A program made the translations under genes and the position numbers. The notes below the pieces were generated by a model, which was not told where the DNA came from, made no database searches, and saw only the letters and a program-made list of their open reading frames with translations. From assembly GCF_004116465.1 (NCBI RefSeq), contig NZ_PDJV01000012.1, positions 1 to 64,000 of the forward strand: a stretch of DNA of 64,000 nt, in the 5' to 3' direction. This stretch comes from Arcobacter sp. F2176 (lineage in GTDB: Bacteria > Campylobacterota > Campylobacteria > Campylobacterales > Arcobacteraceae). Of this stretch, positions 31,720 through 46,667 are shown one piece after another. Each line of letters opens with the position of its first letter. Position 1 is the stretch's first letter.

Positions 31720-32007
31720 ATGCAATATTTAATAATTGCTTATGATAATGATAATGCTTTAGATAAAAGATTAGAAGTAAGAGATGCTCATGTAGCAGGT
31801 GCAAAAAAACTTATAGCTGAAGGTAAAATAATCAATGCAGGTGCTCTAATTGAAGAAGATCAAATGGTTGGCTCTACACTATTTGTTGATTTTGAAAGTG
31901 AAGATGAATTAAATGATTGGATAGATAATGAACCATATGTTACAAACAATGTTTGGAATATGGATGAATTTCAAATCGTGCCTGTAAAGTTACTTCCTAA
32001 AGATTAA
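31720..32007 (+). CDS. YciI-family protein; 3' end serves as integration site
   Basis: A 95-residue YciI-like (dimeric alpha/beta barrel) protein. YDNDNALDKRLEVRDAHVAGAKKLIAEGKI matches the family's N-terminal half, including the conserved Asp-His. Function in the cell is not established. Its last 36 bases belong to a 40-bp repeat present again at 44765-44804, which marks it as the target gene of the mobile element. The reading frame is kept because the element carries the same 3' end. Confidence 0.88.
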   Translation: MQYLIIAYDNDNALDKRLEVRDAHVAGAKKLIAEGKIINAGALIEEDQMVGSTLFVDFESEDELNDWIDNEPYVTNNVWNMDEFQIVPVKLLPKD

Positions 32008-32011
32008 TAAA
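31972..32011 (+). repeat. attL: 40-bp direct repeat at left end
   Basis: Identical to 44765-44804 except G at 31980 against A at 44773. It covers the last 12 codons of yciI, the stop codon and four further bases. The mismatch is synonymous (Val GTG/GTA). Confidence 0.92.
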
Positions 32012-32021
32012 CAATCACAAA

Positions 32022-32053
32022 AAACCCTATAAAATCGATACTTTATAGGGTTT
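32022..32053 (+). terminator. hairpin inside the left end of the element
   Basis: AAACCCTATAAA (32022-32033) pairs perfectly with TTTATAGGGTTT (32042-32053), with an 8-base loop. It lies just after the regenerated yciI stop and may replace the original yciI terminator, which is now displaced to 44802. Confidence 0.65.
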
Positions 32054-32106
32054 AAAACTGCAAAACAATAACAATCAATTACAAACTTTTTAGAATAATT
32101 ACAGTA

Positions 32107-32160
32107 TTTTTACGGTACTATTGACGGTACTGAGAAACTTTTAGAAAGTGAGTACCGTAA
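32107..32160. repeat. integrase arm-type repeats, left end
   Basis: TTACGGTACT occurs at 32110-32119, GACGGTACTG at 32123-32132, and the inverted form AGTACCGTAA at 32151-32160, just before the integrase ATG. The same core appears inside the right end at 44681-44704. Such shared repeats are typical binding sites for the arm domain of tyrosine integrases. Confidence 0.6.
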
Positions 32161-32164
32161 TAAA

Positions 32165-33382
32165 ATGGCAAGAACCGTTAAACCCCTGAATGATACGCAA
32201 CTTAAAAATGCTAAAGCTAAAGAAAAAGATTACAAACTAAGTGATGGAGAAGGTCTTTATTTTGTAGTTAAAAAAAATGGAACAAAATCATGGAGATATG
32301 ACTTCACTTATGGTGGAAAAAGAAAATCTATGTCTTTTGGTATTTATCCTACAGTATCTTTAAAAGATGCAAGAACAAAAAAAGATGAAGCTAAATACTC
32401 ACTGGCTAATAATGTAAATCCTATATCAATAAAAAAAGTTAAAAAGACATCTGAAACAATAACTTTAAGTGATGTTATTGAAGAGTGGTTGGATTTAAGA
32501 AAAAAGAGTAAATCTGAAGCTACAATTATTCAAAATAAAAGAATATTAAAAAATATCACTATTTGGCTTGGAAATATTGCAATAAAAGATATTAGAAGAA
32601 TAGATATTATAAATGCTTTGCAAAAGTATCAAGAAAAAGGTGTAATAGAATCTGCACATAGATTACTAGCTTTAGTAAATAAAATATATATGTACGCTGT
32701 AACAAATGAGTATGTAGAGCATAATATAATTGCAGATATAGATAAAAAATCAATTTTTGTACCAAATAAAAAAGATGCACATCTTCCAGCACTTATAGAA
32801 CCAGAAGATATTAAACAATTACTTATTGATATAAATTCAATAAGTGAAAAATATAGAAGTGATATAAGTACTATATTTATTTTTAAACTACTTCCTTATG
32901 TATTTGTAAGAAGTGAGAATATTAGATTAATGAGGTGGAATGAGTTAAATTTAGAAAAGGGCTATTGGGCTATACCAAAAGAAAAGATGAAAATGAATAT
33001 AGAGTTTGTTTGTCCTTTACCCTATCAAGCAATTAAGATTATAAAAGAGATAGAGCCATATTCAAGACATAGAAGTGAGTTTGTATTCCCTTCTCCACAA
33101 AAGAGTGATAGAGGTGTATCAGGTGCAACACTAAGTGATACATTAGTAAGGCTTGGATACAAAGATAGACATACAGTACATGGCTTTAGAAGTATGTTCT
33201 CAACAACTGCACACAATCTTTATAAAGAGCATGGTTTTCATTCTGATATTATAGAAGCTTGTTTAGCCCATAAGGAAAGAAATAGAGTAAAAGCTTCATA
33301 TAATAGGGAATCAAAATTTAAATACTTTGAAGAGAAGAGGGATCTAATTCAGTGGTACGCAAATTGGTTGTATGGATTATAA
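32165..33382 (+). CDS. int: tyrosine-family integrase (P4-like, DUF4102 arm domain)
   Basis: A 405-residue tyrosine recombinase. The N-terminal arm-binding domain shows KLSDGEGLYFVVKKNGTKSWRYDF and FGIYPTVSLKDAR, as in P4-type integrases. The catalytic residues are Arg249, His339, Arg342, His369 and Tyr379. It lies 157 bases from the yciI stop and reads inward. Its last 65 bases overlap the convergent lipase-like gene. It is expected to catalyse integration and excision between the 40-bp repeats. Confidence 0.95.
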   Translation: MARTVKPLNDTQLKNAKAKEKDYKLSDGEGLYFVVKKNGTKSWRYDFTYGGKRKSMSFGIYPTVSLKDARTKKDEAKYSLANNVNPISIKKVKKTSETITLSDVIEEWLDLRKKSKSEATIIQNKRILKNITIWLGNIAIKDIRRIDIINALQKYQEKGVIESAHRLLALVNKIYMYAVTNEYVEHNIIADIDKKSIFVPNKKDAHLPALIEPEDIKQLLIDINSISEKYRSDISTIFIFKLLPYVFVRSENIRLMRWNELNLEKGYWAIPKEKMKMNIEFVCPLPYQAIKIIKEIEPYSRHRSEFVFPSPQKSDRGVSGATLSDTLVRLGYKDRHTVHGFRSMFSTTAHNLYKEHGFHSDIIEACLAHKERNRVKASYNRESKFKYFEEKRDLIQWYANWLYGL

Positions 33383-34178
33383 TTTCTTTTAGCTTACTAT
33401 GGTAATCGGAATGATTGTTTAGTTTATTGGAAATTTCATTTGATACATCAATATCTACAACTTTAGAATTAAATGAATCCATAGTTTTTTTTAGACCAAT
33501 GGGTGATGATGAAAATTTTAGTTTAAGAAAATTATTAGTATTGTATAAGAGTTTTAAAACGTAATCTTTATTTGAGTAATAATTGTATATTTTATATGAA
33601 ACAACATCTTTTATTGTATTGAAGTCAATCGAATCTCTATCAGCTGCACCTGCAAGTAAATGTACTTCTTTTATACAATGATAGTTGTTTCTTTCTAACT
33701 CTTTTAAACAAGTACAAATTACTTTTGCACCTAATGAATGCCCAATTAGTATGAACTGATTGTTGCTAGAATTTATTAATGATTGAGCTAATTGTTTACC
33801 AACTTCATTTGCGTTATTACTAACCTTATTCCAAGGACTATTTTTATATGTAAAAAAAGCAATTGCAGGTTTAAGTAATATTCCTAAAAAACTCAAAGAA
33901 AAAGGTATTAGGAGAAGAAAACTTGATTGTTTTATAGAATATAATTTAGAAATAAAAGTAGAAACTTTTTTCAGGTTTTCAGATTCCCATAATACATGAG
34001 TAACAGTACTATCTGGAAATATACTCTCAATTGAATTTATCCAGTTCTCTGATGAATTATTATCTTTTTCAGTTAAAAACCCATTAATACAAACTACAAT
34101 AGGGTTCTTACCTTTTTTAAGGATTTTAATTTCTTCATTAAAAAATGGTATATGGACATCATTATTATTCTTTTTCAT
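33318..34178 (-). CDS. alpha/beta-hydrolase (DUF726-like) with membrane segment
   Basis: A 286-residue protein. PIVVCINGFLTE near the N-terminus and FILIGHSLGAKVICTCLKEL in the middle (nucleophile Ser in GHSLG) recall DUF726/TMCO4-type hydrolases. A hydrophobic segment at about residues 80-112 separates them. A later LLAGAADRD fits the strand carrying the acid residue. The C-terminus overlaps the integrase gene tail-to-tail by 65 bases. Substrate and role are unknown. Confidence 0.65.
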   Translation of the reverse strand: MKKNNNDVHIPFFNEEIKILKKGKNPIVVCINGFLTEKDNNSSENWINSIESIFPDSTVTHVLWESENLKKVSTFISKLYSIKQSSFLLLIPFSLSFLGILLKPAIAFFTYKNSPWNKVSNNANEVGKQLAQSLINSSNNQFILIGHSLGAKVICTCLKELERNNYHCIKEVHLLAGAADRDSIDFNTIKDVVSYKIYNYYSNKDYVLKLLYNTNNFLKLKFSSSPIGLKKTMDSFNSKVVDIDVSNEISNKLNNHSDYHSKLKEIIIHTTNLRTTELDPSSLQSI

Positions 34179-34230
34179 AAAATACTTTAATATTATAATT
34201 TATCAATTATAATATATTTATCTAAATAAC

Positions 34231-34632
34231 TTATTTATACAGATAATTATCAACTTCCATTTCATAGCCTCTATCACTTTGTTCTGTAAGATCTGATTCT
34301 TCTATTTCAATTTCATAACCATATTTATCTAAATAATAAGTTTGTTCCAGGTATTTATCTGAAAATGCAAATAAAGTAGGATCTTTAATCATTCGTTCTG
34401 ATTCAGCTAATAAATTAATAAGTAAGTCAACTTTTTGATTAGGTTCTAATCTAATTAGCTCTTTAATATCATCAAATTCTTCCATTGCTTCATCAAGAAA
34501 CATTGCTAATCTAAATGGACATTTATATTTTTTTATTTCATCAATAAAATACTCATTTTCAGTTTCATAGTAGAATGTTGCACAATCTCCAACTGGCTCT
34601 ACTGGTTTTACTAGTTTTATTTCAATAAGCAT
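34231..34632 (-). CDS. acidic protein of unknown function
   Basis: A 133-residue acidic protein that I do not recognise. It starts MLIEIKLVKPVEPVGDCATFYYE and is rich in Glu and Asp, with no membrane segment. The start at 34632 is chosen because AAAGGAAAAACT precedes it. An upstream in-frame start at 34791 would overlap the divergent ribbon-helix-helix gene and its operator. It lies on the element, between the hydrolase and the RHH gene. Confidence 0.55.
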   Translation of the reverse strand: MLIEIKLVKPVEPVGDCATFYYETENEYFIDEIKKYKCPFRLAMFLDEAMEEFDDIKELIRLEPNQKVDLLINLLAESERMIKDPTLFAFSDKYLEQTYYLDKYGYEIEIEESDLTEQSDRGYEMEVDNYLYK

Positions 34633-34684
34633 AGTTTTTCCTTTTAAATTTGAATATAGAAACTTTACAATTGTATGTATTAAG

Positions 34685-34718
34685 TAATGATTATATATAA
34701 TATTATAAATAATCATTA
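34685..34718 (+). promoter_or_regulatory. operator-like inverted repeat and -10 before the RHH gene
   Basis: TAATGATTAT (34685-34694) is the exact inverse of ATAATCATTA (34709-34718), with 14 bases between. A TATAAT -10 hexamer (34696-34701) lies in the spacer. GGAG lies just downstream before the ATG at 34731. A ribbon-helix-helix protein bound here would block the promoter, suggesting autoregulation. Confidence 0.5.
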
Positions 34719-34730
34719 TTTGGAGAAAAA

Positions 34731-35024
34731 ATGGAAGATTTTTCAGCACAAAATATTGATAAAATATCCCATAACATAGCTTCTTTATCAAAGGATATGT
34801 ATGAAATAAAAAAGACTATTCTATCTGAAGAAAAAGAGAAAGAAAAAATTTCAAAAAAAGATAAAAAAAGAAGAGAAAGTCTTAAAAAGGCACAATCAAA
34901 GTTTAAAAATGTATCTACAAATCTTAGTATTAAAGACTACGAAGACTTTGAAAAAAGGTTTAAAGAATTAGGTATGAGTAAATCTGCTTATTTAAAAAAA
35001 TTGATTATGGATGATTTACAATAG
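34731..35024 (+). CDS. ribbon-helix-helix-like DNA-binding protein
   Basis: A 97-residue protein with a lysine/glutamate-rich coiled N-terminal half (EEKEKEKISKKDKKRRESLKK) and a C-terminal ribbon-helix-helix-like unit (VSTNLSIKDYEDFEKRFKELGMSKSAYLKKLI). Such proteins act as plasmid partition, mobilization-accessory or antitoxin-type repressors. An inverted repeat over its promoter fits autoregulation. No toxin-like partner lies directly beside it. Confidence 0.6.
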   Translation: MEDFSAQNIDKISHNIASLSKDMYEIKKTILSEEKEKEKISKKDKKRRESLKKAQSKFKNVSTNLSIKDYEDFEKRFKELGMSKSAYLKKLIMDDLQ

Positions 35025-35029
35025 TTATT

Positions 35030-35338
35030 TTACTTTCCATTTTGAGCTTTTAAAGTTTTGAATTTTTTATGTTGAATGAATGATCCAATAATAAGAGCAA
35101 TAATCCCCATATAAATACCTACTCCAAAAGTAACATTAGAGCTAGTTGGTTCTTCTAATCCAAATAGTATTGTAATAATATAACCTAAAGCACAAAAAGC
35201 CAAGAAGTAAGCAAAAGCATACTTTATAAAATATTCTATTCCATTAAAAACCTTTTCGACTTTTGCTCCACAAGTAGGACAAGTACCAGCACTATCAGAT
35301 ACTGTACTTTTGCATTCAGGACACTTAATTAATGCCAT
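35030..35338 (-). CDS. zinc-ribbon membrane protein
   Basis: A 102-residue protein. The N-terminal zinc ribbon is CPECKSTVSDSAGTCPTCG (two CxxC pairs), followed by two hydrophobic segments at about residues 38-60 and 70-90. Such zinc-ribbon/TM proteins are common and mostly uncharacterised. Its start overlaps the end of the upstream 90-residue gene by 14 bases, so the two are coupled. Confidence 0.6.
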   Translation of the reverse strand: MALIKCPECKSTVSDSAGTCPTCGAKVEKVFNGIEYFIKYAFAYFLAFCALGYIITILFGLEEPTSSNVTFGVGIYMGIIALIIGSFIQHKKFKTLKAQNGK

Positions 35339-35597
35339 TATTTTTTTCCTTATAAAATTGATTTAATAGTTTTGATAATTCAATCATTTCTTCTTTATGA
35401 TTTTGTTCATCATTTATATAAAAAGTTTGACTTATTTTATAATGTCCATCTTCAATATCAAATTCAAATTCACCAAATTTTAAATCTGTAGGTAAGCCAT
35501 CATGAGATAGTTTATTTTTAAAAGCTAGGTCTTTTTTTTGTATATATGTTTTTAGATATTCTTGAGCAGATATATTATTATTTTTTCTTTCTTCCAT
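35325..35597 (-). CDS. small protein of unknown function
   Basis: A 90-residue charged protein that I do not recognise. It contains KFGEFEFDIEDGHYKISQTFYIND and no membrane segment or clear motif. It is coupled to the zinc-ribbon gene by a 14-base overlap and is divergent from the XRE-type gene at 35684. Confidence 0.5.
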   Translation of the reverse strand: MEERKNNNISAQEYLKTYIQKKDLAFKNKLSHDGLPTDLKFGEFEFDIEDGHYKISQTFYINDEQNHKEEMIELSKLLNQFYKEKNNGIN

Positions 35598-35683
35598 TTG
35601 TACTCTTTTCGATTTTATTCATCTATAGCTGAAAGATTTAAATATTCTATACCGATAAACTTTAAATATAAATTAACCATTGG

Positions 35684-35929
35684 GTGAATATATTGAATAA
35701 TATCTATGATGATGCAGATGAGTTTTATAAATTAGTATCTAAAAATGTAAAAAAATATCGCCAAGAAAAAGGCGAATCTCAATTAGAATTCTCTCAAAAT
35801 GTAGGATTTAATTCTGTTAGTTTTTATTGTGATTGTGAGAATAATAAAAATTGTAAACATTTTAATTTAATTCATGTAGTTAGGATTGCTGATTATTTAG
35901 AAGTTGATATTAATATTATTATAAATTAA
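35684..35929 (+). CDS. XRE-type helix-turn-helix regulator
   Basis: An 81-residue protein with an XRE-like HTH: NVKKYRQEKGESQLEFSQNVGF, then FNLIHVVRIADYLEVDINIII. The middle of the domain is unusual, with a Cys-rich insertion (YCDCENNKNC). The likely start is GTG at 35684; a TTG follows at 35693. It is divergent from the two small genes at 35030-35597 and may repress them. Confidence 0.6.
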   Translation: MNILNNIYDDADEFYKLVSKNVKKYRQEKGESQLEFSQNVGFNSVSFYCDCENNKNCKHFNLIHVVRIADYLEVDINIIIN

Positions 35930-36041
35930 TGTTTATAATACAGAGCATCAAGACTGTTCAGAATTTTGTGTCAAAAACTACAGATTGTTGAACAATTTCT
36001 TGCTATATGGGCACCTTCAAATTTGAACTTTTTTCTTATTA

Positions 36042-37055
36042 TCACTCAATACTCCAAAGTAAAGTTTTACCTGCAAACATTGGAACTACTTGTTCATTTT
36101 TATAAGAATAAGAATAAGGAACTATAAAATCTTTTTTTATTAGAGTAATTGGTTTAGAAATAGGTTTTAAATTATAAATTCTTTGTGCATTCAAACTTAC
36201 AAAAGCATTTAATATATCTAATTTACCATTTCTTTCAAAAAATTCAGTTAGAAGTTGTAAAGCAATAGGCGAATTAAATACTCCAGCTGCTCCATGATGA
36301 CACTCTTTAAATTCCTTTTGGTGGGGAGCTGAATCTGAACCAAACATAATTTTAGGATGTGATTGTAATACAACTTCTTGTAAAGCATCTCTATCTTCAT
36401 ATCTTTTTACTATTGGTTTACAAAAATTATGGGGATTTAACATTCCACCTGCAACATCATCAAGGGTTAAAAGAAGATGATGAATAGTTACAGTTGCATA
36501 TAAATTATCATATTTATTAAGTAAAACTATTGCTTCTTTTGTTGAAATATGTTCCATGATTATTTTAAGATTTGGAAAATTAATAGCTAAAGATTCATAA
36601 ATAGGTAAAAACTCTTTTTCCCTATCCATAACAAAACCTTTTGTTTCTCCATGTACACATAAAGGAATTCCCAATTTACTCATTGATTCAAGTGTTGGTC
36701 TTAAAGTTTCAACATCCATTGAAGATACACCTGTTTCACTATTGGTTGTTACTCCAAAAGGGTAAAGTTTCACAGCTATTATTTCATCTTTTATATCTTT
36801 TAAAAATGTGTATGAATAGTCCACTTGAAAAAATATCGTAACATAGGGAGTAAAAACATCTTCTCTACAAAACTCTTTGATTCTTTGTTTATATGATAAT
36901 AAAGCCTCTTTTGTAGTAATTGGTGGAAGAAGATTTGGCATAATAAGTGCACCTGCAAAACTTTTTGATGTTAGAGGTCCCACTAGTTTTAACATATCAT
37001 CATCTCTTAAATGTAGATGCATGTCTAATGCAGAATTTATAATAAATTTTTCCAT
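36042..37055 (-). CDS. pyrC: dihydroorotase (PyrC), element-borne
   Basis: A 337-residue class II dihydroorotase that interconverts carbamoyl-aspartate and dihydroorotate in pyrimidine synthesis. All zinc ligands are visible: His13 and His15 (MHLHLR), the carboxylated Lys96 (VKLYP), His135 (VHGE), His169 (MEHIS) and Asp241 (GSDSAPH). It lies inside the mobile element and is divergent from hisI-ribA across a 155-bp region with two palindromes. PyrC paralogues are known Zur-regulon members in other bacteria, so this may be a second, zinc-limitation copy. That cannot be confirmed without the rest of the genome. Confidence 0.93.
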   Translation of the reverse strand: MEKFIINSALDMHLHLRDDDMLKLVGPLTSKSFAGALIMPNLLPPITTKEALLSYKQRIKEFCREDVFTPYVTIFFQVDYSYTFLKDIKDEIIAVKLYPFGVTTNSETGVSSMDVETLRPTLESMSKLGIPLCVHGETKGFVMDREKEFLPIYESLAINFPNLKIIMEHISTKEAIVLLNKYDNLYATVTIHHLLLTLDDVAGGMLNPHNFCKPIVKRYEDRDALQEVVLQSHPKIMFGSDSAPHQKEFKECHHGAAGVFNSPIALQLLTEFFERNGKLDILNAFVSLNAQRIYNLKPISKPITLIKKDFIVPYSYSYKNEQVVPMFAGKTLLWSIE

Positions 37056-37098
37056 GCTAAATTTTCCTTTTAATTTGGTGCATTTTAACTAAAGAGTT

Positions 37099-37125
37099 TT
37101 TAAATGCAACTAAGTTGCATTTAAA
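37099..37125. promoter_or_regulatory. perfect 27-nt palindrome, candidate Fur/Zur-type operator
   Basis: The arm TTTAAATGCAACT (37099-37111), a central A, and then the exact reverse complement of the arm (37113-37125). It lies between the divergent pyrC and hisI-ribA starts. The inner 21 bp begin AAATG and end CATTT, as does the gammaproteobacterial Zur box in my memory of it. No T-run follows, and the near-zero loop argues for a protein-binding site rather than an RNA hairpin. Confidence 0.7.
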
Positions 37126-37148
37126 TCTTGTTTGCTAGAATTTCAAAC

Positions 37149-37165
37149 TTGCAACTAGTTTGCAA
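37149..37165. promoter_or_regulatory. second, imperfect copy of the palindrome
   Basis: TTGCAACTAGTTTGCAA shares the half-site TGCAACTA and the TTGCA end with the perfect palindrome centred at 37112. The two centres are 45 bp apart. The second lies closer to the hisI-ribA start (37211). Confidence 0.55.
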
Positions 37166-37210
37166 ATTTTTAGAAGAGTGATTGATAAATGTATTATATG
37201 AAGGTAAATT

Positions 37211-38113
37211 ATGAATATTGATTTTAAAAAATCTAATGGATTAGTTCCAGTTATTGCCCAAGAGTATGGAACAAATGAGATATTAATGTTGGGTTATATG
37301 AACAAAGAAGCTTTTGATTTGACTATTGAAACAAAAATTATTCACTATTTCTCAAGAAGTAAAAACAGAATCTGGAAAAAAGGTGAAGAAAGCGGTCATA
37401 TTCAAAAACTAATTGATTTAAGAGTTGATTGTGATGAAGATACACTTTTAGTAATTGTAGAACAAATCGGTAATACAGCTTGTCATACAGGTACTAAATC
37501 TTGTTTTTTCAGATCATATTTAGACAAAGAAAATAAAAAAAATATTATCTCTTCTAAAATTGCAAATTTACCAACAAAATATGGAACTTTTGACATCAAA
37601 GCATATAAAGATGGCTCACAAGAACATCTTGCAATTATGAGTAAAAATTTTTCCCAAATAGAAATACCAATGGTGAGAATTCACTCTGAGTGTTTAACTG
37701 GAGATGCTATTGGTAGTTTAAAATGCGATTGTAATAATCAACTAGATTTGGCATTAGAGCTAATTTCAGCTCAAGGTGGTCTTGTTATTTATCATAGACA
37801 AGAAGGAAGAAATATTGGACTAGTAAATAAAATAAATGCTTATAATCTTCAAGACCAAGGATTTAACACAGTAGAAGCGAATTTAAAACTAGGCTTTAAA
37901 GAAGATGAAAGAGATTATAAAGCAGTTGAATACATTTTAAAAGAATTGGGTCTAAAAAAGATGAGACTTATTACAAATAATCCAAGGAAAATTAACTTTT
38001 TTGAAAATAGTGGGATAGAGATTGTTGAAAGAATCCCTGCAATCACAAAAATAAATAAATTTAATGAAAATTATTTAAAAACAAAAAAAGATGAACTGGG
38101 GCATCTACTTTAA
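37211..38113 (+). CDS. fusion of phosphoribosyl-AMP cyclohydrolase (HisI) and GTP cyclohydrolase II (RibA)
   Basis: A 300-residue two-domain protein. Residues 1 to about 105 are HisI (histidine pathway): Asp73-Asp75-Asp77 bind Mg, and Cys74, Cys91 and Cys98 bind zinc. Residues from about 125 are RibA (riboflavin pathway): HSECLTGDAIGSLKCDC with zinc ligands Cys161, Cys172 and Cys174, then YHRQEGRNIGLVNK and LITNNPRKI. Both active sites look complete. Both enzymes are zinc-dependent cyclohydrolases acting on purine nucleotides. I do not know this fusion as a standard architecture. It heads the putative zinc cassette. Confidence 0.88.
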   Translation: MNIDFKKSNGLVPVIAQEYGTNEILMLGYMNKEAFDLTIETKIIHYFSRSKNRIWKKGEESGHIQKLIDLRVDCDEDTLLVIVEQIGNTACHTGTKSCFFRSYLDKENKKNIISSKIANLPTKYGTFDIKAYKDGSQEHLAIMSKNFSQIEIPMVRIHSECLTGDAIGSLKCDCNNQLDLALELISAQGGLVIYHRQEGRNIGLVNKINAYNLQDQGFNTVEANLKLGFKEDERDYKAVEYILKELGLKKMRLITNNPRKINFFENSGIEIVERIPAITKINKFNENYLKTKKDELGHLL

Positions 38114-38128
38114 ATAAAGGATAATGTT

Positions 38129-38487
38129 ATGTTAAAAGAAGCGCATATAGAAGAGTTAAAAAACAAACTTTTAGAGAAAAAAGAAAAACTACTTCAAGAA
38201 ACAACATCAAGTCAAGGTTTTATTGAAGAGCTTCATCGTGACACAAAAGGGGATGAGACAGATTTTGCGGAGCTTTCAAGTGATACATATAATTTAAGTA
38301 TTCTTAGAGAAAAGCAAATTGAAGAGTTAAGAGAGATTGAACCGCTTTAAAAAAGATTGAGAATGGCACTTATGATATTTGTGAAATGTGCGATGAACCA
38401 GTGGGGATAAAAAGGCTTAGAGCTAAACCACATGCTAGATTTTGTATATATTGTAGACCGATTTATGAAAAAGAACAAAAATCCTAG
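38129..38487 (+). pseudogene. dksA-like gene broken by a frameshift
   Basis: The first 73 codons (38129-38350) give a DksA-like coiled-coil with the tip signature DETDFAELSSD. They end at a TAA. Directly after, in another frame, 38349-38487 encodes the missing end: LKKIENGTYDICEMCDEPVG, then FCIYCRPIYEKEQKS, with all four zinc Cys. One missing base in the TTTAAAAAA run (38346-38354) would restore a protein of about 119 residues, the usual length. Either a true mutation or a sequencing error in a homopolymer. DksA binds RNA polymerase with ppGpp. Confidence 0.85.
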
Positions 38488-38518
38488 ATTTAGCTTGTGT
38501 ATATAAAAAGGAAAGATA

Positions 38519-38776
38519 ATGTCAAATTGCCCATACTGTGGTAAAAAAATACCTATGAATAAAGCTTTTTGTTCTAAAAGCTGTAAAGAGAACTATTTTC
38601 AAATGGTTGCAATACAAATTCCTCAACCATTTTTAAAAAGAATATTTATATTTTGTACCTTAGAACAAAGAGAGATAGAGATTGAGAATTTTGCCAAAAG
38701 ACATGGTTGGGAGCATGAACTTGTTAAAAAGAAAATAGAGGAAGAATCAATTAAATTTGGATATGAAAATAACTAA
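38519..38776 (+). CDS. small zinc-finger protein of unknown function
   Basis: An 85-residue protein starting MSNCPYCGKKIPMNKAFCSKSC, a four-Cys zinc site of the FCS/DUF2116-like kind, then a charged helical tail. It has a clear AAAGGAAAG ribosome site and follows the dksA-like gene by 31 bases. Its place among zinc-enzyme genes suggests a zinc-related role, such as binding or sensing, but nothing in the sequence proves it. Confidence 0.6.
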   Translation: MSNCPYCGKKIPMNKAFCSKSCKENYFQMVAIQIPQPFLKRIFIFCTLEQREIEIENFAKRHGWEHELVKKKIEEESIKFGYENN

Positions 38777-38790
38777 AAATAAGGGAATAA

Positions 38791-39057
38791 GTGAAAAATA
38801 TAAAAGTTGAATTAGAAAGTATAATATTTAATGTGATGTTACCAGAATCACAAGCTTTTTTAGATGAATTAAATGAAGAAATAGAAAAAGGGAATGAAAA
38901 AGAAGAGATTGTTGAAGCAAAAAAAGATATTGTATCTTTTATTGAAGAATTAAATCAAGTTTTAAAACTGATTGAAGAAAAAAAACTATCAAATAAAAAT
39001 GCAAAAGATATGTATAAAAAAATTAGAAATATGCTTGATGAACATGAACATCAATGA
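38791..39057 (+). CDS. small acidic helical protein of unknown function
   Basis: An 88-residue protein rich in Glu, Lys and Leu, predicted largely helical or coiled-coil, ending DEHEHQ. The start is GTG at 38791 with AAGGG upstream. Its stop overlaps a possible start of the DUF1826 gene (ATGA). I do not recognise a family. Confidence 0.5.
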   Translation: MKNIKVELESIIFNVMLPESQAFLDELNEEIEKGNEKEEIVEAKKDIVSFIEELNQVLKLIEEKKLSNKNAKDMYKKIRNMLDEHEHQ

Positions 39058-39071
39058 ATGTTAAAGGAAAA

Positions 39072-39752
39072 ATGACGATGAATGAAAAGAATCTCAATTT
39101 TGCTGGTGAATGGAATCAAGCAGGAGGCATGTCCCGACATATGGCCCAGGATAAACAGCCAACGGTTTTGAGCGATATCTATCAGGCAGAGATTAATATA
39201 GCCATTTGGCGACGTGAGAAGTCTACTACTCTACAATATTCGGTAAAAGAATTTTTAGCATTGAATCCTACATTTCAAAAGGAAATGGTCTTAACGCCAC
39301 AAGATGCACTTTCGCGTGTTAGCGAATCTTTTGATAACAATATGACCGAAGTTAGCGAAGATATTGCTGAGCTTGTAGATATGTTTTGTTATTTGTTTGA
39401 ACTTAAACAAGCAGGCATGCGTTTGAAAGTTTTAGATCGAGCGATGTGCCCTAAGTTTCATGTGGACAAAGTGCCTTGCCGTCTTGTGACAACCTATCAA
39501 GGTATGGCCACAGAATGGCTGCCACATGAGCTGGTTGATCAAACAAAACTGGGTTGGAGTTGTAACGGCTTGCCTGACAGTGAATCTGGCCTTTACCAAA
39601 GTGAAAATGATATCCAACAACTAGATTGTGGCGATGTTGCATTGCTCAAAGGTACGCTTTGGGAGGGTAATGAAAATGCGGGCTTAGTCCACCGTTCACC
39701 AGGATTGATAGTCAATGAAAAGCGTTTGATATTAACTTTAGATTTTAAGTAG
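39072..39752 (+). CDS. DUF1826 protein, foreign composition
   Basis: A 226-residue DUF1826 protein. The family core is clear: RLKVLDRAMCPKFHVDKVPCRL, then TTYQGMATEWL and NAGLVHRSPG, with a final LTLDF. DUF1826 genes are associated in other Proteobacteria with Zur regulons and COG0523 metal chaperones; function is unknown. The start at 39072 has AAAGG just upstream; 39054 and 39078 are alternatives. G+C is near 50% in blocks I counted (39121-39180: 31 of 60; 39481-39540: 30 of 60), against 10 of 60 just upstream (38941-39000). This points to transfer from a gammaproteobacterium-like source. Confidence 0.88.
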   Translation: MTMNEKNLNFAGEWNQAGGMSRHMAQDKQPTVLSDIYQAEINIAIWRREKSTTLQYSVKEFLALNPTFQKEMVLTPQDALSRVSESFDNNMTEVSEDIAELVDMFCYLFELKQAGMRLKVLDRAMCPKFHVDKVPCRLVTTYQGMATEWLPHELVDQTKLGWSCNGLPDSESGLYQSENDIQQLDCGDVALLKGTLWEGNENAGLVHRSPGLIVNEKRLILTLDFK

Positions 39753-39991
39753 TTAAATGTTGTGGATTATCTTATGAAGCTAACAATCATATCGTATGCA
39801 TTTGAGCAGTAATGTGAGGTATTAAGTTCACAATCTCCTAGGTTTTGAACTTACTATTTATCTCATATATTTGAATGATTGCAAAGTAATGTCTATTTCC
39901 TAAAAGAATAAGTTGTTGAACTTTATAATTTATACTAAGTTTGACTAAAAAGGCCACTTCTATGAGAATTAATGAGCTCTTAATTTTCTAC

Positions 39992-40876
39992 TCATACTTT
40001 TTTAATTGTACTAGGAGGATGTCCAAAATATCTTTTAAATTCTCTACTAAATTGACTAACATTATCATATCCAACTGCATTTGATGCCTCAATTACTTTC
40101 ATATTATTATAAGCTATTAATTGTTTTGCTTTTTCTAATCTTATTTTCTTTATATATTGAATAGGAGTATCATTCATTGCTTGTTTAAAAAGTTTATGAA
40201 AATTATTTACACTCATATCAGCTAATTTCGCCATTTCATCTAAATCAATTTTTTGTTCAATGTTTTCAAGAATATAATCAATAACTCTTGATATTCTAGA
40301 TAGATTACTATCTTTTTGGCATAATTGTATTAACATAGAACCACTATTGCTTTGTAAAATCCTATAGTAAAGTTCATCAAGTAAACCGTTAGCTAAAATA
40401 TCTGATTCAATTTCATCCTCAAGTATTGCTAAGAATTTTCCATATATGTTTTGAATAACATCTGTTCTATTATTACAAGTGATAGAGAAACCTACTTCTT
40501 TATCTATTTTATCTGATGAATCAAATTGAGTAAACTTCTTAACTACTTTTTGTAATCTATTCATATCTAAAGTTATATATATTCCGACTAATGGTTCATC
40601 TCCCATTATATAAGTTTCACACTCTACAGGTTGAGGAGAGCTAATAACTAAATAATCTAAATAACCATGTTCAAATTTTACATTATTGATATAACCAATT
40701 TTTTTACCACTACCTACAAAACTAAAACCCTTTTTGTATAAAAGAGGCATTAGCTCTTCATTAGATGAGACTTTAAATAGTTTTATTTCCTCTATATATG
40801 TATTAGCAAAACCATTTTTGTTTTCTAATCCATATAATTTACATAAATTAGTTAATTGCATTGAATCATTTGTCAT
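39992..40876 (-). CDS. AraC-family transcriptional regulator
   Basis: A 294-residue regulator. The C-terminal double HTH shows LDEMAKLADMSVNNFHKLFKQAMNDTPIQYIKKIRLEKA, then VIEASNAVGYDNVSQFSREFKRYFGHPP. The N-terminal half fits the AraC_N ligand-domain type. It is divergent from the SDR gene at 40979 across a 102-bp gap, so it probably controls that gene. It is on the mobile element. Confidence 0.9.
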   Translation of the reverse strand: MTNDSMQLTNLCKLYGLENKNGFANTYIEEIKLFKVSSNEELMPLLYKKGFSFVGSGKKIGYINNVKFEHGYLDYLVISSPQPVECETYIMGDEPLVGIYITLDMNRLQKVVKKFTQFDSSDKIDKEVGFSITCNNRTDVIQNIYGKFLAILEDEIESDILANGLLDELYYRILQSNSGSMLIQLCQKDSNLSRISRVIDYILENIEQKIDLDEMAKLADMSVNNFHKLFKQAMNDTPIQYIKKIRLEKAKQLIAYNNMKVIEASNAVGYDNVSQFSREFKRYFGHPPSTIKKV

Positions 40877-40978
40877 TTTTTCTCATTTGTGCTTTTATGC
40901 ATGATATTTACGTTTTTATGTATTCACATACTTAGATTGGTGTGTTATTATACATAAAATTTAAAAAGAAGGAATTAA

Positions 40979-41605
40979 ATGTCAATAGATAATCAAAAAA
41001 CAGTGATTTTAATTGGTGCAAAAGGAAATATGGGACAAGCTGCTTTAAGTGGTTTAGGGAAACACAAAGTTATTACAGCTAGTCGTTCAGGAGAAGTTTG
41101 TGATTACAAAGTTGATATTACAAGCGAAGAGTCTTTAAGAAAATTATATGAAGATGTTGGTCATTTTGATGCAGTAGTAAATACAGTAGGTTACTGTGAA
41201 TATGCAGAATTTACAGAAATGACAGAAGAACAATGGAACAATACTATTCAAAGTAAGATGATAGGACAAATTAATATTGTAAGAGTAGGTCAAGAGTATA
41301 TAGCAGATAATGGTTCATTTTCATTAATTACAGGAATTTTAAATATAAAACCTATTCCATATGCTATTGCAGATGCAACTACAAGTGGTGCTATTGATAC
41401 ATTTGTAAAATGTGTAGCGTTTGAAATGCCTAGAGGTATTAGAATAAATTCTATTAACCCTACAGTATTAGAAGAAGCTTGGGATGTATATGGTGAAATG
41501 ATGCCTGGTTTTCATCCTGTTCCAGGTTTTTTAGTGGGAAAAGCTTTTGAGCGTTCTGTAGATGGATTCATTACGGGTCAAGTTCTTGTTGTAGATGCTT
41601 ACTAA
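40979..41605 (+). CDS. short-chain dehydrogenase/reductase-like protein (lacks YxxxK)
   Basis: A 208-residue SDR-fold protein. The nucleotide-binding turn is LIGAKGNMGQAAL and the NNAG-like motif is VVNTVGYCEY. At the usual active site PYAIADATTSGA, the Lys of YxxxK is replaced by Asp. This is a known variant SDR group, and the reaction is not known. Ends GFITGQVLVVDAY. Probably regulated by the divergent AraC protein; AAGAAGGAAT precedes the ATG. Confidence 0.8.
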   Translation: MSIDNQKTVILIGAKGNMGQAALSGLGKHKVITASRSGEVCDYKVDITSEESLRKLYEDVGHFDAVVNTVGYCEYAEFTEMTEEQWNNTIQSKMIGQINIVRVGQEYIADNGSFSLITGILNIKPIPYAIADATTSGAIDTFVKCVAFEMPRGIRINSINPTVLEEAWDVYGEMMPGFHPVPGFLVGKAFERSVDGFITGQVLVVDAY

Positions 41606-41613
41606 ATAAAAAA

Positions 41614-41643
41614 TGACTAGGCAGAAGAAATTCTACTTAGTCA
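41614..41643 (+). terminator. possible terminator hairpin after the SDR gene
   Basis: TGACTAGGCAGAA (41614-41626) pairs with TTCTACTTAGTCA (41631-41643), with one wobble and one mismatch, around GAAA. No T-run follows, so strength is uncertain. Confidence 0.45.
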
Positions 41644-41840
41644 ACTTAATCTGTTAACAGAAAATAAGACATAAAACTCTAAATAATCTTTTCTTAAAAC
41701 TCTAAATCTTGGAACAAAATTAGAAAATCTTACATATTGGCTTTACAATCTTTATTTACAAATATAATTTGTTCCCAAAAATGTTCAAGAAGTAGAATTT
41801 ATAGATTCTCTCAAACCCTTAGGACTTATGGACTTAAAGA

Positions 41841-43322
41841 TCACTTTAATTTATTATGATTTATCTTTCCTTTCTTCTCTTCACTCCCAGTATATTTTGA
41901 AATCTTAGAAATTATCACATCTAAATCATCTTCACATTTAAGGTACTTACTTATTTTTGTAAAAGCTTCATCCATTCTTTTGTATTCTTCTTGTATAATA
42001 TCAAGGTTATGTAGTTTAAGTTTAAGGTCATTCACTTCTTCTCTTAGCTTTTTATTCATACCAAAGTATGCTTTTGATTGTTCAATCTTTACATTAAACT
42101 TTTTGCTTAAGATTTGTTCTTGTTGCAGTTGTTCTTGTAAACTTTTATTCTCTCCAATAAGCTTGTTATATCTTCTTTTTGTTACATAGTACGTATCTAT
42201 ATGTTCTTGTTGTTTTAAGTGTGTTCTATTTTCTTCTATAAGTTTTTTATTTTCCAGTAGTAAATCTTGTGGGTGATTTAGTCCATTAATTGAATTTGTA
42301 AACTCATTGTACTTATGTAGGTGTTTAGCATAGAAGTTAAGGTACTGTTTTAATCTATCTTCATCTACTTTTGTAAAACCTAGTTTAGTAGTAATACATT
42401 CCTCTACTATTTTATCAGTATCATAGATCTTAATTTGTTTTATGTCAATGATTGGCTTATCTTCTTTTATAATATTGATTGTAGTTTCAAGTTCTTCTTT
42501 TTCTTTTGTAAGTGATTCTAAAGTTAAACTTTCACTTTTTAGTTCTACCCTTGCTTTTTTAATAGAAATATCAATGCTATCAAGTTCACTTTTTAATTGC
42601 TTTTTATCCTCTACAGTTTTCTTTATCTTCTTCTTTTGAGCTTGAAGTTTTTTGATATGGTCTTGTATGTCTTTTTTAAGTTGTTTAATCTCTTCTTCAT
42701 GCATCTGCCTAACAGATAGATGTTTTGTAGTTGATTTTCTATCACCTCTTTCTAATCCAATATCTTTAAAAGTAGATGCGACAATATCTTGAAACTCTGA
42801 TAGTCTTCCACTTTTTCTTAGGTTATACCATACAGCTTCACCATTCTTTGTATGGTTATTAAAAGTAAAGTGCATATGAGGTGTTTTTTCATCATAGTGG
42901 ATTACATAATGAGATAACTTAATACTATCATCACCTAAGATATTATGTATCTTATCTTGGATTAGTGGTATTGAATCTGCAAAAGATTTTTCTAGTTGTT
43001 CTTTTGTTACTTTACCTTGTTCTAGCCATTCATTTACAATAGGACTTAGAGTAATAACTCCAGTTAGATGATCTGATTGTTTACCCTTCTGTAAATTTCT
43101 ATGATGTTTATTTTTATATAACTGATTGTATTCATCAAAACTTTTTTTAGCTTTTTGTTTTAATTGTTTTGGATCATACCCAAAATAGATATTATAAAAT
43201 TTGTTGTGGTGCATATTATCTCTTAAGTAATTGGGTTTAGCAATTCTAAAATCATGATTTATGCTTTGGATAGTTCTACAAGTAGTTTGAAAACGAACTT
43301 GTACTTTCTTTCTTTGATTCAA
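41841..43322 (-). CDS. MobV-family relaxase (Mob/Pre)
   Basis: A 493-residue plasmid-type mobilization relaxase. The metal-binding signature HYDEKTPHMHF carries His142, His149 and His151. The N-terminal region has the family features (RNLQ-like, then DHLTGVITLSP). The C-terminal half is a long coiled-coil. It nicks oriT and leads the strand during mobilization. An oriT-like inverted repeat lies 60 bases upstream of its start. It is the strongest evidence that the element can transfer with a helper. Confidence 0.9.
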   Translation of the reverse strand: MNQRKKVQVRFQTTCRTIQSINHDFRIAKPNYLRDNMHHNKFYNIYFGYDPKQLKQKAKKSFDEYNQLYKNKHHRNLQKGKQSDHLTGVITLSPIVNEWLEQGKVTKEQLEKSFADSIPLIQDKIHNILGDDSIKLSHYVIHYDEKTPHMHFTFNNHTKNGEAVWYNLRKSGRLSEFQDIVASTFKDIGLERGDRKSTTKHLSVRQMHEEEIKQLKKDIQDHIKKLQAQKKKIKKTVEDKKQLKSELDSIDISIKKARVELKSESLTLESLTKEKEELETTINIIKEDKPIIDIKQIKIYDTDKIVEECITTKLGFTKVDEDRLKQYLNFYAKHLHKYNEFTNSINGLNHPQDLLLENKKLIEENRTHLKQQEHIDTYYVTKRRYNKLIGENKSLQEQLQQEQILSKKFNVKIEQSKAYFGMNKKLREEVNDLKLKLHNLDIIQEEYKRMDEAFTKISKYLKCEDDLDVIISKISKYTGSEEKKGKINHNKLK

Positions 43323-43660
43323 AATACTTCTCCTTAGAATATAGAATAATGGGGATTTTTAAGGGTGGCGACCGTACCCCTTGAACTTACAACCTAACAC
43401 AAAGTGGGAGGTTAGTAAGTTGTATTTATGGTTTACCTAAATACATGATACATAGGCACACAGTGCATACGTACTTCTTATGCTTTATAGAGATAATTAT
43501 CTAATTATCAAATACTAATATTTTCATTTATTGGTCATCTAGATAACTAACGCGTACGCGTAATTTAGCTTTAATGATTTACAAACTGTTGGGCTACTGA
43601 CGCCCTACGGTTGTCTCTTATACTTCATTCTTAATTTTTGCTATTTAAGATTCAATATTT
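43323..43660. other. non-coding region with oriT and palindromes
   Basis: No gene is visible here. Besides the oriT candidate it holds GCACACAGTGC (43456-43466), the palindrome AGATAATTATCT (43491-43502), and the GC-rich palindrome ACGCGTACGCGT (43550-43561). A GGGC/GCCC hairpin lies near 43590-43606. The density of palindromes is unusual for this sequence. Confidence 0.55.
43384..43421. other. candidate origin of transfer (oriT)
   Basis: AACTTACAACCT (43384-43395) is an inverted copy of AGGTTAGTAAGTT (43409-43421), with one bulged base and a 13-base spacer containing CACAAAGTGGG. It sits 62 bases upstream of the mobV start. MobV-type oriT sites lie just upstream of the mob gene and consist of such inverted repeats. 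The nick site is not assigned. Confidence 0.5.
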
Positions 43661-44212
43661 TTAAATCTTAATTTCTTTTTTTTCATAAGCAAGAGATTCT
43701 AATCTATCTTTTTCTTTGTCTTTATTTATTTGTTTTAAAAGTAGTAGTTCATTTAATTTTTCATATTTTTCTTTTTCATTTACTTTACTTTTATTTAATT
43801 GTTCAACATTTGTTGAGCGACTGTTTAACATTTGTTCATTTTTCTTGTTTCTTCTTACTTCTCCACTTCTAATTCCAGCAAGTCTTGCTTGTTCTCTTTT
43901 TTTATTCATTAAGTCCATTCTTCTATTTAAACTTGGACTAAAAAAGAAAATATCATCTTCAATGCTAAATAAGTTATAATTTTTTACAACAACTTCCATC
44001 TTCACAACTGTAGTATTATATTTACGAGCTAAACTTGTTAGTAATTTAAGTGGATACTTAAAATTCTCTTGTTCTCTAAGTGTTTCAACTAATACCCAAA
44101 AAATGCCATATCCTTCGAGCCCTAGTTCTTCTATTAAAAGCATACATTTGTAATCATCTTTTGCATTACTATCATGTGAAAAGTAATATGCATCCTTCTT
44201 TTTAATGTTCAT
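43661..44212 (-). CDS. DUF4373/Lin1244-like DNA-replication-type protein
   Basis: A 183-residue protein. The N-terminal stretch YYFSHDSNAKDDYKCMLLIEELGLEGYGIFWVLVETLREQ is the DUF4373 (Lin1244/Lin1753-like) domain, found in phage and plasmid replication-associated proteins. The C-terminal third is Lys/Glu-rich. It lies between AlpA and mobV on the element. The role in replication is inferred from the family. Confidence 0.8.
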   Translation of the reverse strand: MNIKKKDAYYFSHDSNAKDDYKCMLLIEELGLEGYGIFWVLVETLREQENFKYPLKLLTSLARKYNTTVVKMEVVVKNYNLFSIEDDIFFFSPSLNRRMDLMNKKREQARLAGIRSGEVRRNKKNEQMLNSRSTNVEQLNKSKVNEKEKYEKLNELLLLKQINKDKEKDRLESLAYEKKEIKI

Positions 44213-44294
44213 TAATTACCTTTTATTTTTAACTTTATATTTTTTATTTGCTAATCATCTAAATGAAATATAAGTAGCTTAAGCAACAAATTTT

Positions 44295-44495
44295 TTATGA
44301 AACTCTATTGTTTTGCATTTGTAAATCAATCCATTCTCTAATTTCTCTTTGTGAATATAATTTTGTTTTAGTATTTGCTAACCTAAAACTTTGCGGAAAA
44401 GTTTTATCAGTTTTTATATCTTCATAAAATTTTCTTGTTGATACATTTAGTAGATTACATACTTCTTTTATTTTAAGTAATTTATCATTTTCCAT
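44295..44495 (-). CDS. AlpA-like HTH protein / excisionase
   Basis: A 66-residue HTH protein: LLKIKEVCNLLNVSTRKFYEDIKTDKTFPQSFRLANTK, then YSQREIREWIDLQM, as in AlpA/HTH_17 proteins. AlpA-like proteins often activate or direct excision by P4-type integrases. Its position at the right end of the element fits a recombination directionality factor. Confidence 0.8.
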   Translation of the reverse strand: MENDKLLKIKEVCNLLNVSTRKFYEDIKTDKTFPQSFRLANTKTKLYSQREIREWIDLQMQNNRVS

Positions 44496-44764
44496 TTGAT
44501 TATTTTCCTTCCTTTTTTTATATGTTTTGAGAAGTTTAGTTTAATTTTTTTGGCTTGTCAAGCCCTTAAAATAGGCATTTTAAAGAAGTTTGTTTTTATT
44601 TAATATTAATTAATATATAATCTAGGGAAAGATAAATTTTGTAATTTTTTTTTTCATAAAAATTTATAAACAAGATTTTATTACGGTATTTTTTACGGTA
44701 CTATGGAAGTTAATATTTTTATAACTTCCTATATTATAGTACTTTTACGATTGTACTTTAGTTC
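44496..44764. other. right-end non-coding region of the element
   Basis: No gene is visible. It contains TTACGGTA at 44681-44688 and TTACGGTACTAT at 44693-44704, matching the left-end arm repeats. GGAAGTTA (44705-44712) is inverted as TAACTTCC (44722-44729). Confidence 0.6.
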
Positions 44765-44804
44765 CAAATCGTACCTGTAAAGTTACTTCCTAAAGATTAA
44801 TAAA
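44765..44804 (+). repeat. attR: 40-bp direct repeat at right end
   Basis: Matches 31972-32011 with one difference. It is a stranded copy of the yciI 3' end, without the rest of the gene, next to the displaced yciI terminator. Confidence 0.92.
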
Positions 44805-44929: not shown

Positions 44930-45658
44930 ATGTTAAAAATTATTTCTACTCTTATTATGTTGCTTACACTATCACAAGCTCATTTCTTAACTTTTATGTC
45001 AAACAGTGATGTTGTTGATGATAAAAAAGATTCAACGCTTAATTTTGATATTTCATTTATACATCCTTTTGAGCAAAATGCAATGACAATGGAAAAGCCA
45101 AAATTATTTGTAAATAGTAATGATAATAAAATACCTGTAAGTGAAACTACTAAATTAGGCCACAAAGCATGGAGTGCAAAATATAAAATAAATATGCCAG
45201 GTGTATATAAATTTTTTGTTGAGCCACAAGCATATTTTGAACCAGCAGAAGGAAAGTATATTATTCATGTACCAAAACTAATTGTTGATGCTTATGGTTT
45301 AGAAGATGGTTGGGATGAACCTATTGGGTTAAAATATGAGATTGTACCAATGGTTAAACCTTTTGGATTATATGCAGGTAATTTATTTCAAGGAAAAGTT
45401 TTACACGATGGTAAACCAGCTAGTAATGTTGAAGTTGAAGTTGAACTATATAATGACTTTAATTTTAAAGCTCCAACTAGTAGTCATGTAACACAAGTTG
45501 TTAAAACTGATGCTAATGGTATTTTTTCTTTTGTTATGAATCACAAAGGATGGTGGGGATTTGCAGCTTTAATTGAAGAAGGGCAAATAAAAAATAAAGA
45601 AGATGGTAAAGAGTACCCTATAGAAAATGGTGCTTTACTTTGGATTAAGGCTTACTAG
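44930..45658 (+). CDS. nikK: DUF4198 periplasmic protein of nickel ECF transporter (NikK)
   Basis: A 242-residue DUF4198 protein with a signal peptide (about residues 1-17, ending in SQA before His18). Proteins of this kind are the periplasmic NikK component of nickel ECF transporters. His-rich sequence at the mature N-terminus (HFLTF) is typical and likely binds metal. Its stop overlaps the next start by one base (TAGTG), so the five genes 44930-47955 form one operon. Confidence 0.85.
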   Translation: MLKIISTLIMLLTLSQAHFLTFMSNSDVVDDKKDSTLNFDISFIHPFEQNAMTMEKPKLFVNSNDNKIPVSETTKLGHKAWSAKYKINMPGVYKFFVEPQAYFEPAEGKYIIHVPKLIVDAYGLEDGWDEPIGLKYEIVPMVKPFGLYAGNLFQGKVLHDGKPASNVEVEVELYNDFNFKAPTSSHVTQVVKTDANGIFSFVMNHKGWWGFAALIEEGQIKNKEDGKEYPIENGALLWIKAY

Positions 45659-46254
45659 TGCATATAGCTGATGGTGTCTTAACTTTAGAATCAACTATAA
45701 CTGTTAGCGCTATTAGTTTAGTTTGTTTATATGTTTCTATAAAATCTATAAAAGATGAAAAGATAACTTTAGCAGCAGCTATGAGTGCTATGTTTTTTAT
45801 AGCAACATTTATTCATGTCCCACTTGGTGTTACCCAAATACATTTAGTCCTTATTGGCGTGATTGGGATACTAATTGGGTGGATGAGTTTTATTAGTATT
45901 TTTATAGCTTTAGTACTTCAAGCTTTACTTTTAGGTTATGGAGGTGTTGTATCACTAGGAGTAAATCTTTTTGTTATGGGAATGCCGGCAATCATTGTGT
46001 ATTATTTATATAATATGGAAATTACTAATAAATTAAATGAAAAAGTAAAGTTTTTTTTAGTGGGATTTTTAGGCACATTTTTTGCAACACTTTTTTTAGC
46101 AATTATCTTACTTTTCTCAAAACCAGAGTATGAGTATGCTTCATATACTATATTTATAGTTGATTCAGGTGCTATGGTAATTGAAGGAATAATAAGTATG
46201 TTTTTATTGCAGTTTATCAAAAAAACTTATCCAAAAATTTTGAAGGCCAAATGA
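45658..46254 (+). CDS. nikM: ECF transporter substrate-binding membrane subunit (CbiM/NikM)
   Basis: A 198-residue CbiM/NikM. The N-terminus MHIADGVL, which provides the metal-binding His2 site after processing, is diagnostic. Several membrane helices follow. The start is GTG, sharing its first G with the nikK stop. Nickel rather than cobalt is inferred from NikK and NikL. Confidence 0.92.
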   Translation: MHIADGVLTLESTITVSAISLVCLYVSIKSIKDEKITLAAAMSAMFFIATFIHVPLGVTQIHLVLIGVIGILIGWMSFISIFIALVLQALLLGYGGVVSLGVNLFVMGMPAIIVYYLYNMEITNKLNEKVKFFLVGFLGTFFATLFLAIILLFSKPEYEYASYTIFIVDSGAMVIEGIISMFLLQFIKKTYPKILKAK

Positions 46255-46667
46255 TGAAATATATTTTTATAATTTTTATACTATTTTCTAGTGTATGGGC
46301 TCACAAATTAAATGTATTTTTAACAAATGAAGATAGTAATGTACATGTTTTTGCTTATTTTGCAAGTGGAGCAGTTTGTCAAAACTGTAGATTAATCATA
46401 AAAAATAAAGACAAAATTGTATTTGAAGATAAACTTGATAATAAGGGAAAATATACATACAATTCGAAGTTTAAAAATATAGATGTAATTGTTGATGCTG
46501 AAGGTGGACATATGGCCCAAGAGAAAATAGAAGTTTCTAAGCCACATACCCAAAGTCTAACAAAACATATACAAGAAGAAGAGACACAAAAATATTATAA
46601 AATAGTTATCTCTTTACTTTTAATTGGTATAATATTTTTCCTAATCAAAAAAGTAAAGAGAAAATGA
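46251..46667 (+). CDS. nikL: NikL-like nickel transporter component
   Basis: A 138-residue protein with a signal/anchor segment, a short periplasmic domain starting AHKLNVFLTNEDSNVHVFAYF, and a C-terminal membrane helix (about residues 116-134). It has a CxxC pair in VCQNC. It overlaps cbiM by four bases. The layout and position match NikL. Confidence 0.8.
   Translation: MMKYIFIIFILFSSVWAHKLNVFLTNEDSNVHVFAYFASGAVCQNCRLIIKNKDKIVFEDKLDNKGKYTYNSKFKNIDVIVDAEGGHMAQEKIEVSKPHTQSLTKHIQEEETQKYYKIVISLLLIGIIFFLIKKVKRK

Follow-up and report, generated by a model that had tools for sequence, protein, structure and literature searches.

In gamma- and beta-proteobacteria, paralogues of HisI, PyrC, DksA and QueD are linked to Zur, with DUF1826 genes nearby, and a dosage effect has been put forward for HisI and others that keep their zinc ligands (Haas et al., 2009, PMC2770081). 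The Zur regulon of Vibrio cholerae includes ribA (PMC6103462), and the DUF1826 gene of Francisella (FTN_1758) is Zur-dependent (PMC5786701). Islands wired to Zur are also on record, for example VSP-II of V. cholerae (PMC8248653) and the zinc-responsive island of Mycobacterium avium paratuberculosis (PMC4298942). A related gene set, here called the cassette, lies at 36042-39752 in a stretch of 64,000 nucleotides from Arcobacter sp. F2176 (the host); 'the window' means this whole stretch and not the cassette alone. With a probability of roughly 0.86, the gene content and the palindromes can be read as those of a mobile, Zur-repressed operon of backup enzymes for zinc shortage. Labels of the form G0xx and Lxxx denote comparison genomes and loci, and C1, C2, C4, C9 and C33 denote locations in the host genome.

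The cassette resembles the COG0523/Zur clusters (PMC2770081) in its Zur-type sites, its PyrC, HisI, DksA and QueD paralogues, its association with DUF1826 and a zinc importer, and the second copies found beside chromosomal zinc-dependent enzymes. However, it lacks the COG0523 GTPase, has RibA added and fused to HisI, and keeps in PyrC and DksA the zinc ligands that the Zur-linked proteins of those clusters have lost; its Zur-type box and its phylum are different as well, and it is carried by an integrative element or a plasmid. As in the Vibrio Zur regulons (PMC6103462, PMC9817125), ribA is associated with znuABC-type targets, but the Vibrio RibA stands alone, with neither a HisI fusion nor a cassette. 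Likewise, DUF1826 is predicted from the boxes to be under Zur control as in Francisella (PMC5786701), where FTN_1758 is in contrast a stand-alone gene without a cassette. VSP-II (PMC8248653) and the M. avium paratuberculosis island (PMC4298942) are also horizontally acquired DNA under the host zinc regulator, although their cargo consists of chemotaxis or metal-uptake genes rather than backup zinc-dependent biosynthetic enzymes. What is new against the known clusters is the HisI-RibA fusion, the zinc ligands kept in PyrC and DksA, and the mobility. The term 'undescribed system', used in a preliminary description of this DNA, fits only in part, as gamma- and beta-proteobacteria are known to have Zur-controlled clusters of zinc-enzyme paralogues (PMC2770081).

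In the open-access literature searched, which gives weak evidence of absence, no paper was found on a HisI-RibA fusion or on Arcobacter, Zur and znuA together, nor was a Zur operator or regulon found described for Campylobacterota; the locus supplies a candidate for both. Zinc-sparing enzyme sets are seen here moving on mobile DNA, and a natural fusion of HisI with RibA ties two unrelated pathways via a common metal. The locus also opens to experiment the question of why a cell short of zinc would make backup enzymes with intact zinc ligands.

Cassette genes and their second copies

Pfam and NCBIfam domain searches placed all of the genes listed in the preliminary description at the coordinates given there. 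The rows below include a remnant adjoining pyrC (aa, amino acids; GC3, GC content at third codon positions).

35985-36045, minus strand: truncated N-terminus of queD (VIIRKKFKFEGAHIARNCST); full queD in G030, G012 and G090
36042-37055, minus strand: pyrC2, dihydroorotase with the full zinc ligand set (TIGR00856, 365.6 bits, above cut-off)
37211-38113, plus strand: hisI-ribA fusion, 300 aa (PF01502 and PF00925 in a single frame)
38129-38487, plus strand: dksA-like gene, frame broken (stop at 38348-38350; zinc-finger half in another frame, 38344-38487)
38519-38776, plus strand: zinc-finger protein of the treble-clef/zinc-ribbon type, 85 aa, DUF2116-like; a paralogous gene is near-universal in Arcobacteraceae
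38791-39057, plus strand: 88-aa protein, predicted three-helix bundle with a His-containing C-terminus, paralogue on C33
39054-39752, plus strand: DUF1826 protein (Pfam; GC3 36%)

Chromosomal second copies are present for six of the seven cassette gene types. They are pyrC on C2 (68% identical to the cassette copy), ribA on C1 (60%), hisIE on C9 (57% identical to the cassette HisI), dksA on C4, a paralogue of the zinc-finger gene on C1 (68%; the family occurs in 99 of 104 Arcobacteraceae genomes) and that of the 88-aa gene on C33. The idea that the cassette holds the only copies, which the preliminary description had named, for pyrC, hisI and ribA, as the finding that would count against a zinc role, is ruled out because these second copies exist, that of dksA included.

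The fused frame encodes a complete phosphoribosyl-AMP cyclohydrolase (PRA-CH) and a complete GTP cyclohydrolase II (GTP_cyclohydro2), above the curated cut-off and with the zinc cysteines present, and its product is a putative bifunctional enzyme. The housekeeping hisIE is bifunctional, and the cassette holds only its zinc-dependent HisI half, joined to the zinc-dependent RibA. With neither HisE nor RibB in the cassette, only zinc-dependent steps are represented, a choice that would be expected if zinc were the common theme. The zinc ligands, said earlier to be kept, are present in every copy examined: H13, H15, K96, H135, H169 and D241 of PyrC (all found in seven cassette copies), C74, C91 and C98 of HisI, C161, C172 and C174 of RibA, and the C4 finger motif of DksA.

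The genes from hisI-ribA to DUF1826 form one apparent operon, since the intergenic gaps are short or overlapping, and run in the direction opposite to pyrC. The dksA-like gene of the preliminary description is present but broken, having one base fewer than the copies of G032, G019 and G054 (GAAC[A]CGC), all three of which hold an intact 119-aa frame. By this comparison the gap is a one-base deletion in the host copy, favoured over a programmed frameshift, which is ruled out, because the relatives have the extra base and the intact frame; the frameshift may be an assembly error. Behind the host pyrC lies the queD remnant, and in relatives queD comes after pyrC.

Palindromic boxes shared with zinc importer loci

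The gap between the divergent pyrC and hisI-ribA contains two 15-bp boxes, which together span 37105-37164.

37105-37119, no strand: candidate Zur-type box 1, TGCAACTAAGTTGCA, perfect palindrome (palindrome search)
37136-37141, plus strand: candidate -10, TAGAAT, between the boxes (by inference)
37150-37164, no strand: candidate Zur-type box 2, TGCAACTAGTTTGCA, 45 bp past box 1 (palindrome search)

A genome-wide search found paired TGCAACTnAGTTGCA at only three loci of the host, namely the cassette, znuABC and zur/znuA2, so the cassette pair is the same operator motif as that of the host's zinc importer operon. In 3.27 Mb, about 0.007 exact copies would be expected by chance, or about 0.36 with at most one mismatch. 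The znuABC-type operon lies on C4 at ~3.8-6.3 kb. The third pair, at ~183.5 kb on C4, separates the gene of a 121-aa Fur-family protein, at 183.2 kb, from that of a second ZnuA, which has a His-rich loop. The preliminary description had noted shared palindromes and proposed the zinc link from gene content; the palindromes are common to both zinc loci, and the link gains independent sequence support from the box pair shared with znuABC and the Fur/ZnuA locus and across the family, and from the position of the fusion behind znuC-znuB in relatives.

Of the 104 Arcobacteraceae genomes, 70 contain exact matches to the 14-base motif, with 1-7 copies each, and none contains the reversed control (0/104). 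Among some 30 sites sampled, the gene that follows was mostly znuA, znuC, zur, a TonB-type receptor/outer-membrane protein, ribA, pyrC/hisI, the zinc finger or the 88-aa gene, with the boxes mostly 10-150 bp upstream. In G094 and G099 a stand-alone DUF1826 gene follows a box pair. The spacing was 42-51 bp in many of the 43 pairs collected. On this genomic context the palindrome is named a candidate Zur box. The name Zur for the 121-aa protein likewise rests on genomic context: it matches the FUR family above cut-off and is encoded beside znuA2 here and in relatives, an autoregulatory arrangement. The 3' half of box 1 could serve as the -35 (TTGCAT, 37115-37120), with the -10 between the boxes. 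Directly after the znuA2 behind the zur-side box pair (L033:8489-9886) there is a gene for a NicO/RcnA-type permease, an odd partner for a zinc binding protein.

Proposed role and alternative explanations

Under ample zinc, the Fur-family protein encoded next to znuA2, as Zur in its zinc-loaded form, would occupy both 15-bp boxes, which bracket the divergent pyrC and hisI-ribA promoters, and would keep these promoters silent. When zinc is low, Zur would be released and the second PyrC, the HisI-RibA polypeptide, the zinc-finger protein, the 88-aa helper and DUF1826 would be produced, together with the zinc importers under matching boxes. Pyrimidine, histidine and flavin synthesis might thus be sustained while the chromosomal enzymes lose zinc. 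A cassette moving on integrative elements and plasmids would in this way join the existing Zur regulon of its host. Shared boxes, paralogy, zinc ligands, operon structure and mobility are legible in the DNA itself, and Zur binding, the zinc response and a biochemical advantage of the cassette copies are what we infer. Since the zinc ligands are kept, the backup copies most likely act through tighter zinc binding, metal promiscuity or dosage alone rather than as metal-free enzymes. More tentatively, and with somewhat less than an even chance, the cassette may be a portable zinc-starvation kit in which elements and plasmids spread backup enzymes whose kept sites bind zinc more tightly or take other metals, including HisI and RibA halves that share only their zinc dependence, all wired to the host Zur; DUF1826 and the two small proteins would then be new zinc-economy factors.

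Several points weigh against a Zur-repressed backup operon. At 121 aa, the candidate Zur is a short protein that gives only weak matches to NCBIfam PerR/Fur models, which are its best, and matches no Zur-specific model; the substrate-binding ABC family PF01297 spans zinc and manganese importers; and the host genome has four Fur-family genes. These would suit control by another Fur-family regulator (Fur or PerR), with the cassette as an iron, manganese or peroxide-stress set. Such a set is nevertheless very unlikely, as all of the enzymes are zinc enzymes, the cassette is accompanied in relatives by znu genes and COG0523, a His-rich loop of the zinc-importer type is present in the second ZnuA, and the enzyme list coincides with the one known for Zur in other phyla (PMC2770081, PMC6103462).

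The host copy is also partly decayed (dksA frameshift, queD stub), and this particular cassette may therefore be losing function. Decay, together with the occurrence of the fusion inside znu operons of some relatives, would fit ordinary spare metabolic genes carried for gene dosage, with boxes there by chance or derived from a neighbouring znu operon. Box pairs, however, recur before unlinked ribA, pyrC/hisI, zinc-finger, 88-aa and DUF1826 genes in different genomes, and only zinc-dependent steps were retained, which leaves the spare-gene explanation scarcely probable. It is unlikely, too, that the host copy is a dead remnant within a functional family. The two lesions, the AraC-SDR insertion downstream and the broken pyrC of G032 speak for a remnant, but the frames of pyrC, hisI-ribA and the zinc-finger, 88-aa and DUF1826 genes are fully open, the G032 and G019 copies of HisI-RibA share 94-97% identity with that of the host, and box 1 is perfect.

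Carriage, distribution and neighbouring genes

The mobile element assumed in the preliminary description could be delimited by its repeats and contains the following features.

31969-44804, no strand: integrative element, 12.8 kb, at the 3' end of yciI (43-bp repeats, empty site)
31969-32011, plus strand: attL, overlapping the 3' end of yciI (31720-32007) (43-bp direct repeat)
32165-33382, plus strand: tyrosine integrase, P4-like, 405 aa (NCBIfam NF007246, XerD-like matches)
39848-41701, no strand: later insertion of araC (39992-40876, minus) and an SDR oxidoreductase gene (40979-41605, plus) (G030/G012 comparison)
41841-43322, minus strand: Mob_Pre-type relaxase (PF01076)
43661-44212, minus strand: Lin1244-type protein, possible replication initiator (PF14297)
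44762-44804, plus strand: attR, 95% identical to attL (43-bp direct repeat)

The congener G032 has an empty site with the flanks joined at a single repeat copy, and G033 is also without the insert. Carriage of the cassette by an integrative element is proven, and from its gene content the element is probably mobilizable. In G032 the cassette occupies another site, adjoining ychF and an integrase fragment. Aliarcobacter faecis carries it on a plasmid of 140 kb, pAFAEC, where znuABC, queD and an NTF2-like gene accompany it between a Tn3 transposase and a recombinase. There (NZ_CP053838.1 10672-11574, L198) RefSeq annotates only the RibA part, and the fused HisI half is unannotated although its frame is open. 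G030 and G012 are homologous to the host DNA over 35985-39847 and again from 41702 onward. As positions 39847 and 41702 are joined in these genomes, AraC and SDR are ruled out as cassette members and form a later insertion outside the ancestral cassette.

The fusion occurs in 16 of the 104 family genomes, and also in Sulfurimonas and other Campylobacterales metagenome-assembled genomes (MAGs). In several Arcobacteraceae the fusion gene immediately follows znuC-znuB, and in two Campylobacterales MAGs it immediately follows a COG0523 GTPase gene. In the L122 MAG, dksA, COG0523, pyrC, ribA, hisI and a Fur-family gene are found together, with HisI and RibA unfused. Cassette HisI domains, fused or unfused, make up one clade (94/91), separate from housekeeping HisIE. 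The earlier remark that a COG0523 chaperone is missing holds for this cassette, and apparently for the genome, whose two PF02492 proteins (196 and 266 aa) have UreG/HypB sizes; it does not extend to the related clusters L118, L119 and L122, which have the GTPase.

CysS, ThrS, HisI and RibA are all zinc enzymes. Marine alphaproteobacteria of the MarineAlpha5 type (L137, L173) carry a cysS-thrS-hisI-ribA-cupin-like row, ~-3400 to +1440 from the hisI match, and this gene order reads as an independent grouping of zinc enzymes. A fused HisI-RibA is ruled out in both loci, where the genes are separate and adjacent.

The DUF1826 gene, with a GC3 of 36% against 9-16% in most neighbours, is by its foreign composition a recent acquisition. 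It is present in 6 of 397 Campylobacterota sampled, and among plasmid-collection records its nearest relative beyond the phylum is from Vibrio (58%). A viral origin is ruled out, as viral contigs gave no relative. Conserved FHxD, GD and HRSP...R motifs (H131, D133, H208, R219) are present, and the FHxD...H-x10-R pattern resembles that of Fe(II)/2-oxoglutarate dioxygenases. The suspected likeness stays a lead, because an AlphaFold prediction from three sequences gave no usable model (mean predicted local distance difference test score, pLDDT, 30) and a sequence search of the PDB gave no relative. The 88-aa protein is a confident three-helix bundle in structure prediction, and comparison of the model with the PDB gave no significant match.

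Other neighbours include a 128-aa NTF2/SnoaL-like protein with the C-terminus HHHSSQIPR (L198:5433-5819 and homologues), encoded beside queD and pyrC in the cassettes of several relatives and absent from the window. Within the element, an alpha/beta-hydrolase-like open reading frame (33318-34178) adjoins the integrase. Just right of the element, at 44930-47955, lie genes for a CbiMNQO/NikMNQO-type metal transporter of the energy-coupling factor (ECF) class, without a Zur box.

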